Origin: Candidatus Saccharimonadota bacterium
GTDB taxonomy: Bacteria; Patescibacteriota; Saccharimonadia; Saccharimonadales; Saccharimonadaceae
DNA length: 19,729 nt
Direction: 5' to 3'
Assembly: GCA_009778015.1 (NCBI GenBank)
Contig: WRKS01000001.1
Coordinates: 1 to 19,729, forward strand
This document shows, one piece after another, positions 3,007 to 19,729 of the stretch. A program made the position numbers and the translations under genes. Within the stretch, counting starts at the first letter, position 1; every line of letters starts with the position of its first letter. Below the pieces are notes generated by a model. It was not told the origin of the DNA. It worked only from the letters and a program-made list of their open reading frames with translations, and did no database searches.

Positions 3007-3035
3007 ATTATATAGGACAAGGCGGTGCATGTCAA
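3007..3035 (-). promoter_or_regulatory. nusA promoter (consensus -35/-10)
   Basis: On the minus strand: TTGACA (3035-3030), exactly 17 bp, TATAAT (3012-3007). Both hexamers are perfect sigma70 consensus. The -35 directly abuts and slightly overlaps the left end of the repeat cassette at 3034. Confidence 0.9.
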
Positions 3036-3343
3036 CACCCAACTCGGCGTGAACACACAATCCGCGATAGTTAATGGCGGTCTAGCCAATAAACCAAGCT
3101 TCTTTGGTTCCTCTATAGCAGAAATCGTATCAAGTGCCAATACTCTTAACGGCAGCTGGAACGGCGATCGGTCGCCCAGTAACATATCTACCAACCCTTG
3201 GCTTGGCCGTAGTGGCCACTCCAATCTCGGGTTTGAAATCGGCATCTTTTCATTCAACGGCATGTCTGCTGGTGGCGGGCCGCACTATTATACCTCCCAC
3301 CGCACCATACTATTAGGCTACTAAATGTATGTGGGGGGTGAGG
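3034..3343 (+). repeat. Repeat cassette C1 (silent C-terminal coding module)
   Basis: A 310-bp element. Its left end AACACCCAACTCGGCGTGA (3034-3052) is identical to that of C3, and 17 of these 19 bp are also in C2. Its right end (3294-3343, 50 bp, starting CTCCCACCGC and ending GGTGAGG) is identical in all three copies. The frame from 3034 to the TAA at 3322-3324 encodes NTQLGVN, then GGLANKPSFFG, SWNGD, STNPW, GIFSF and SHRTILLGY. An ATG occurs 9 bp before the left end but has no Shine-Dalgarno sequence, so the module looks silent. The right end stops exactly at the gyrA stop codon and the left end touches the nusA -35. The protein pattern resembles the end of C-type-lectin/FGE-like domains (G(V/I)FAF...R..L); that is a weak, by-eye match. 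Confidence 0.8.
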
Positions 3344-19022: not shown

Positions 19023-19333
19023 CCTCACCCCCCACATACATTTAGTAGCCTAATAGTATGGTGCGGTGGGAGATCCACTGAGCTTCAGCCCCCGCCTGAG
19101 AGTAGAAAGCGAAAACTCCGCTAGAAGTATTAGAAAACGAGCGTTCGCTTCGCCTAAACCATGGTTGAGTATCAAAAACAGATTGTGCAACATCCAAGTT
19201 CCAGCTAGCTAATAGATCAATGCCGGTGTTATTACTGCTGATTATTTCTGCTGTTGCAGTGCCAAAAAACTGAGCTTTACCAACAAGGCCTCCTTCAATC
19301 AGTGCCCGATTGTTGTTCACGCCGAGTTGGGTG
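19023..19333 (-). repeat. Repeat cassette C2
   Basis: The minus-strand copy of the family: left end TCACGCCGAGTTGGGTG on plus (19317-19333), right end the shared 50 bp (19072-19023). The reading frame runs from TQLGVNNN through GGLVGKAQFFGT, SWNLD, TQPWF and GVFAF to SHRTILLGY, with TAA at 19044-19042. Relative to C1 and C3 the core has diverged at most silent positions yet keeps the motif order. No start codon with a ribosome-binding site precedes it. It sits head-to-head with C3 and just after the rpmB terminator. Confidence 0.8.
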
Positions 19334-19373
19334 AGGGTAAAGGGACACACCCCGAACACCCAACTCGGCGTGA
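19317..19373. repeat. Perfect 17-bp inverted repeat between cassettes C2 and C3
   Basis: TCACGCCGAGTTGGGTG (19317-19333) and CACCCAACTCGGCGTGA (19357-19373) with 23 bp between. They are the two outward-facing left ends. Each arm is itself slightly symmetric (CAC...GTG). This is the geometry of a site-specific recombination junction between inverted segments, or a cruciform; no recombinase is visible in the window. Confidence 0.85.
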
Positions 19374-19667
19374 GCAATGTAAATGCTATACGGATAGGTG
19401 GATTAGCGAACAAGCCTGCGTTTTTTGGTACAACTTCGGCTGAAATAGTTAGCGTTGTTGCAGCCGGGCGCGATGTCAGTTGGAATGGCGATATGGCTGA
19501 TTTCGTGAATTCCACAAACCCCTGGTTTTACCGTGGTGGCGCCCACGCGCAAGATGGCTCCCAGGCTGGTGTATTTGCATCACACCCCAGGACTGGTGAC
19601 AGTAGCCAATACTGGACCTCCCACCGCACCATACTATTAGGCTACTAAATGTATGTGGGGGGTGAGG
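19355..19667 (+). repeat. Repeat cassette C3
   Basis: The plus-strand copy, same orientation as C1 and with the same 19-bp left end (19355-19373) and 50-bp right end (19618-19667). It encodes NTQLGVSN, then GGLANKPAFFGT, SWNGD, STNPWFYRGG, AGVFAS and SHRTILLGY-stop (TAA 19646-19648). PWFYRGG is closer than in C1 to the PWF(K/Y)RGG seen in lectin-like C-type folds. There is no start or ribosome-binding site. After the right end, the same TTAGGCT as after C1 follows, then the 3' end of a minus-strand gene. Confidence 0.8.
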
Positions 19668-19673
19668 GTTAGG

Positions 19674-19729
19674 CTATTGGGCGGTAATCTTGTAGATAGT
19701 GAGGCTGGCTGGCATGGTGGTGTTGGGCT
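19674..19729 (-). CDS. 3' end of a minus-strand gene (partial)
   Basis: The window edge cuts the gene; the visible last codons read PNTTMPASLTIYKITAQ then TAG (19676-19674). Hydrophobic-polar alternation suggests a beta strand. Another frame would end HYLQDYRPIA just before TAA, so the frame choice is uncertain. No function can be given. Confidence 0.4.
   Translation of the reverse strand, partial: PNTTMPASLTIYKITAQ

Follow-up and report, generated by a model that had tools for sequence, protein, structure and literature searches.

Antigenic variation from silent cassettes is known from Neisseria (pilS/pilE), Borrelia (vls) and Mycoplasma (vlhA), and in the shufflon of plasmid R64 alternative C-terminal segments of a surface adhesin are present as opposed partial open reading frames (ORFs) with short repeats. 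In diversity-generating retroelements (DGRs), adenine mutagenesis is directed into one gene, whose variable protein has a C-type-lectin/FGE fold (TaqVP, 5vf4; 2y3c and 1yu0, which we take to be TvpA and Mtd, respectively). Bacteria of the Saccharibacteria type, whose genomes are very small, presumably live on other cells. Here we analyze a window of 19,729 bp, i.e., the whole stretch at positions 1 to 19,729 of contig WRKS01000001.1 (assembly GCA_009778015.1) of a Candidatus Saccharimonadota bacterium, which carries three copies of an element with fixed ends and a variable coding core. These three elements are probably part of a genome-wide bank of about 60 silent cassettes, which encode variable regions of a single secreted or surface protein, so that dozens of seemingly interchangeable lectin-like protein ends apparently form a stored library for changing the binding of this protein.

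Silent cassettes in the window and across the genome

The three window copies lie where the initial annotation had placed them, with a common left end of 17-19 bp and widely differing cores. The left end is identical over 19 bp in copies 1 and 3 and over 17 bp with copy 2, and the core DNA is 47-52% identical among the three. All copies have the same 50 bp at the right end (52 bp between copies 1 and 3), as had been reported, but in copy 1 this end runs 19 bp beyond the TAA at 3322-3324, to 3343, and not 23 bp.

In the own genome (G000; 542,425 bases in 87 contigs, 71.9% complete), copy 1 gave 68 matches at the DNA level, and the whole assembly gave 61 protein matches (E up to 0.1), which include pieces at contig edges. 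One protein-match cassette was flagged with an internal TAG; this codon precedes the left end, and the locus was clean when a later-starting query was used. Contig-level counts refer to the 61 contigs examined. A search for both ends returned 56 right ends there (a few with mismatches), a number that excludes chance, and 50 cassettes with both ends. The earlier statement that no copy has a start with a ribosome-binding site holds for 49 of these 50 under a simple motif rule, but fails for the window copy at 3034, where a GTG at 3025 has AGGA upstream; this start signal is probably accidental. By crude ORF calls, 49 of the 50 cassettes fall between ORFs; for 18 of the 49, one side is a contig edge or lacks an ORF. 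The exception, again the copy at 3034, overlaps only an artificial upstream extension of the nusA ORF. By a script rule, an inverted left end abuts the cassette in 28 of the 50, often as the palindrome ACGCCGAGTTGGCCAACTCGGCGT; 12 complete head-to-head pairs lie within 60 bp, and the partners are no more alike than random pairs.

The cores are under strong constraint at the codon level. Their 3905 codons contain no stop, against about 181 expected from base composition, and the other two frames contain 131 and 369. The cores come in 10 distinct lengths, all equal modulo 3, with indels that are multiples of three. A framework of glycines, FFG, E, WN, PW, RGG, AG and F is kept, and the mean protein identity between cores is 34%. 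Silent sites are close to saturation: among same-residue four-fold codon pairs in 12 conserved core columns, 63% differ, whereas the values at the fixed ends are 3% (left) and 1% (right). From this difference it follows that the ends are kept the same at the DNA level, either because copies recombine with one another or because the ends serve as a site.

A putative expressed gene joined to the left end

A gene joined to the cassette end was found on contig C25. This ORF of 718-728 aa has AAGGAG ahead of its ATG and a signal-like N-terminus, and it stops at the contig edge, reading ...GGLVYSLTQLGA / ...GGGLVYSLTQLGANDRPSIANGALA, with its right side outside the assembly. The DNA at this contig end includes ACCCAACTCGGCG, i.e., the left end. 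A further gene start of this family is at the end of contig C67. As judged from sequence, one or a few loci with start signals thus stand beside many startless partial copies, and a conserved flank is common to the putative expressed gene and the silent copies: the left end in the own genome, and both ends in a genome of another genus, G127.

The sister genome G002 has a complete version of the gene, whose product of 771 aa (FWG86_01795, Candidatus Saccharibacteria bacterium at NCBI) shows 55% identity across 94% of the query and has a cassette-like C-terminus. Fold prediction on the sister protein (P0122) gave a DGR-type C-type-lectin/FGE domain, with a mean confidence (pLDDT) of 73.7 that is lower over part of the cassette region, in line with the lectin/FGE-like domain suggested from the window alone. 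The cassettes are therefore predicted, by way of this homologue, to encode the C-terminal part of a protein with the fold of DGR variable proteins.

Visible core shared between loci and the proposed copying step

Five locus pairs (C9/C39, C5/C11, C27/C79, C74/C49 and C2/C9) are 97.8-100% identical over 61-137 bp, including a fixed end, and have different flanks. In all five the match ends within or at the edge of a fixed end, and the visible core in common is about 70-105 bp in four pairs and about 18 bp in C27/C79. The overlap of C1 with C6, a sixth case, is the right edge of the window itself. Together with the left end in the C25 gene and the constraint on the cores, these pairs support the proposal of the initial annotation that modules with fixed ends are exchanged into an expressed gene.

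A bank function for the expressed lectin is the best-supported reading of these data. Recombination at the two fixed ends, the short left and the long right one, would copy a core over its full length into the expressed gene, where it would replace the binding face of the lectin; occasional expression would keep the cassettes open. The default mechanism for this copying, and the weakest part of the proposal, would be RecA-type gene conversion.

Several observations weigh against this reading. For RecA, a left end of 12-19 bp is short. A swap into the expressed gene was not observed, the right half of the C25 gene being off the contig, and its first core residues were found in none of the other examined contigs. 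Among the 120 best matches of the search that gave FWG86_01795, there was no HRTIL protein of more than 200 aa. A contig end cuts all five common cores, as is expected when two contexts share one core, so that identity over whole cores is unproven, and a mixed population in the assembly could contribute to the sharing. Mosaic sharing did not exceed that of a column-shuffled control (18-mers were shared by 3 pairs, against a mean of 1.5 and a maximum of 5 in the control); since segments are not shared above chance, whole-core copying fits better than segmental conversion. Furthermore, the congeners G001 (98% complete) and G003 (97%) gave no match, and G002 gave six at most. This patchiness, set against the old-looking divergence at silent sites, would need loss, lateral arrival or fast core evolution. 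Finally, G079, a congener of G127, gave two weak profile matches and no pattern match.

A second bank in another genus

The window cassette was matched in 3 of 100 relatives and its profile in 16 of 394 family genomes, the own genome being included in both counts and at most 13 candidates per genome being scored in the latter. G127 gave 84 matches to a profile of its own copies, and two of these lie within frames of 810 and 751 aa. The ends of these cassettes, GGGTGGTCGGG...GGTTTTCGTGGGG, are almost invariant, and 51 of the 52 extracted cores are open, the core of the putative expressed gene among them. An 802-aa ORF has both cassette ends in place and the C-terminus ...VGFRGVVVIRP. A recA-like gene lies directly downstream of the complete lectin gene of G127, on the opposite strand (L230, G127:C1 5729-6901).

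Four Asn-rich G127 copies (L176, L236, L237 and L238) have their 3' end in common with the expressed gene. In an alignment inspected by eye, the same four also appear to have a common stretch downstream of the cassette end that is missing from the expressed gene. Template repeats would share sequence in this way, and the copies are perhaps a multi-copy DGR template RNA.

Among 120 proteins listed from metagenome relatives, own included, 74 end in HRTILLGY and 44 in HRTILSGY; seven are presumably on one 125,315-bp contig and four on one 164,545-bp contig.

Reverse transcriptases and template-like copies

The copying step could also be of another kind. In retro-homing, the cassettes would be many templates of a DGR-like reverse transcriptase (RT), and the complementary DNA would home by means of the left end and the right-end hairpin. 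This is an alternative for the copying step only and is compatible with a bank function; we regard it as rather unlikely, and with RecA-type conversion it is one of the two copying mechanisms that remain.

Retro-homing draws on RT genes in this group. The own genome has a C-terminal RT piece at the edge of contig C38, which scores as RVT_1 and below the group II cut-off. G002 and G003 have two RT matches each, and the best solved match of the G002 RT is 8ub7 (E 3e-22), presumably the BPP-1 DGR enzyme. No RT match was found in G001. None was found in G127 (64% complete) either, which counts against the proposal; G079, of the same genus as G127, has one. Also on C38 (L128, ~1030-1180), two repeat copies starting tataaacacctcgccctcgcagcaatgctcggcgaggat were seen about 110 bp apart, ahead of an ORF at 1177.

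Four template-like copies of about 340 bp are scattered over G002, outside long genes, and are alike in the flanks on either side (L114, L115 and L116). When compared with the A-rich copy C6:758, copy C2:103626 has 30 differences over 138 core positions, 22 with A in C6 and 0 the reverse; copy C2:31572 has 18 (13 and 2, respectively) and copy C2:112784 has 11 (5 and 3), so that two of the three compared copies show a clear adenine bias. Variable repeats differing mainly at template adenines, as in a DGR, are thus seen among the G002 copies but not in the own bank. The hypervariable columns of the own bank nevertheless coincide with the A-first codons of C6:758 (mean column entropy 3.42 for 17, against 1.49 for 37; p=2.6e-8), so that the own bank varies where a DGR would write. 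A DGR-like target, i.e., a C-type-lectin-fold protein with a variable C-terminus, is also predicted. The variation itself is not limited to adenines: the three codon positions of the hypervariable codons have entropies of 1.67, 1.63 and 1.74, and adenine-specific mutagenesis alone does not make third positions as variable as the first two. Neither a template for the own bank nor one matching the G002 copies was found in the examined contigs.

According to PMC3240598, homing in BPP-1 requires a minimum of 8 bp of identity on the 5' side and improves from 19 bp upward; it also requires a 3' element with a hairpin behind it. The unequal cassette ends and the hairpin predicted over the stop codon of the right end (z -2.98) fit this geometry. 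The hairpin has, however, an AT-rich stem and a GCTA loop outside the GRNA consensus, and the ends of the G127 (z -0.40) and G002 (z 0.78) copies fold no better than shuffles.

Taken together with the bank, these data allow a wider proposal, which we put forward tentatively: a DGR lineage may keep a genomic memory of hypervariable binding domains as about 60-80 dispersed, silent templates per genome, which selection holds in frame and any one of which an RT- or RecA-based step could copy into an expressed lectin. If so, the repertoire would be inherited and selected, and not re-randomised each time.

Features of the window

The coordinates of the window cassettes are collected in Table 1. By genes named by eye, cassette 1 lies between gyrA and nusA, and more precisely between the gyrA stop codon and a TTGACA...TATAAT motif preceding nusA. 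In the congener G003 the gap between these genes, also named by eye, is about 90 bp and has no cassette. Positions 19627-19729 repeat the end of contig C6 with 1 mismatch in 103 bp. Because of this overlap C6 probably continues the window, and since C6 ends on the right end and flank of cassette 3, the assembly breaks close to a cassette.

Table 1. Cassettes and their parts in the 19,729-bp window
Feature	Position	Strand	Description
Cassette 1 (silent)	3034..3343	+	Variable core between the two fixed ends; the right end includes the stop codon and the 19 bp after it
Fixed left end ACCCAACTCGGCGT of cassette 1	3037..3050	+	One-base variant present in the C25 gene
Fixed right end of cassette 1	3294..3343	+	Encodes SHRTILLGY, TAA 3322-3324, then 19 bp; predicted DNA hairpin over the stop
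Cassette 2 (silent)	19023..19333	-	Head-to-head with cassette 3
Cassette 3 (silent)	19355..19667	+
Spacer between inverted left ends of cassettes 2 and 3	19334..19354		21 bp
Right end of cassette 3 and its flank	19616..19729		Overlaps the end of contig C6

Other explanations of the dispersed cassettes

The cassettes could be a selfish element, i.e., a mobile repeat that happens to carry the 3' end of the gene and does nothing for the expressed copy. The insertion relative to G003, the intergenic sites and the patchy distribution among congeners are what such an element would show. It would also account for longer common flanks: the C5, C74 and C55 cassettes have 68-69 bp of right end and flank in common (L064 11662-11729, L080 1361-1428 and L076 2021-2089), and the extra 18 bp or so hint at dispersal of a longer unit. 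Nevertheless, it leaves unexplained the perfect frames, the kept framework and the hypervariability at DGR positions over 50 cassettes, and a second genus holds another bank with other ends. We consider a selfish origin improbable.

Even less probable is a shufflon-like inversion, in which a recombinase acting on the palindromic left ends would bring cassettes to the expressed gene. The frequent abutting inverted left ends and the 12 close pairs invite this comparison, but the pairs have their starts in the middle and their tails outside, and, given the genome-wide spread of the cassettes, inversion would flip entire segments of the chromosome. The presence of a core at two loci, in turn, argues for copying and not for moving. 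PF00589 matched once each in G000, G002 and G079 and not at all in G127, serine recombinases not having been searched.

That mixed strains yielded many alleles of one gene by faulty assembly or binning is scarcely credible: the assembly is fragmented, and 11 of 122 contig ends fall in cassettes that make up 3.8% of the bases, but cassettes also lie inside contigs and are flanked by different housekeeping genes, the contamination estimate is 0.33%, and metagenome relatives carry several cassettes on presumably single contigs of 60-165 kb.

Comparison with known systems

If the bank reading is true, about 4% of the examined sequence is spent on a library of binding-domain variants, which would make the recognition of a host that changes, or the evasion of an agent binding to the cell surface, central to the life of these bacteria. 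A single protein fold would then link DGRs with silent-cassette switching, and nature would offer large sets of lectin variants for testing.

The bank shares its predicted fold with the DGR variable proteins, but where these have mutagenesis into one gene, here dozens of cassettes lie silent in the genome, with changes in length and saturation at silent sites. Integron gene cassettes are an unlikely model, the present cassettes being dispersed and without complete genes. The R64 shufflon is alike in its alternative C-terminal segments, opposed partial ORFs and short common repeats, but the cassettes do not form one invertible cluster, and the PF00589 search, with one match in each of three of four genomes, pointed to no dedicated tyrosine recombinase. 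With pilS/pilE, vls and vlhA the bank has in common a putative expressed gene with a start and a signal, many startless partial copies, fixed flanks and in-frame variable cores. It differs from them in that its cassettes are dispersed, singly or in head-to-head pairs, in the intergenic gaps of a reduced genome, and in that its cores, 34% identical on average at the protein level, are not mosaics of the kind that vls-type segmental conversion produces.
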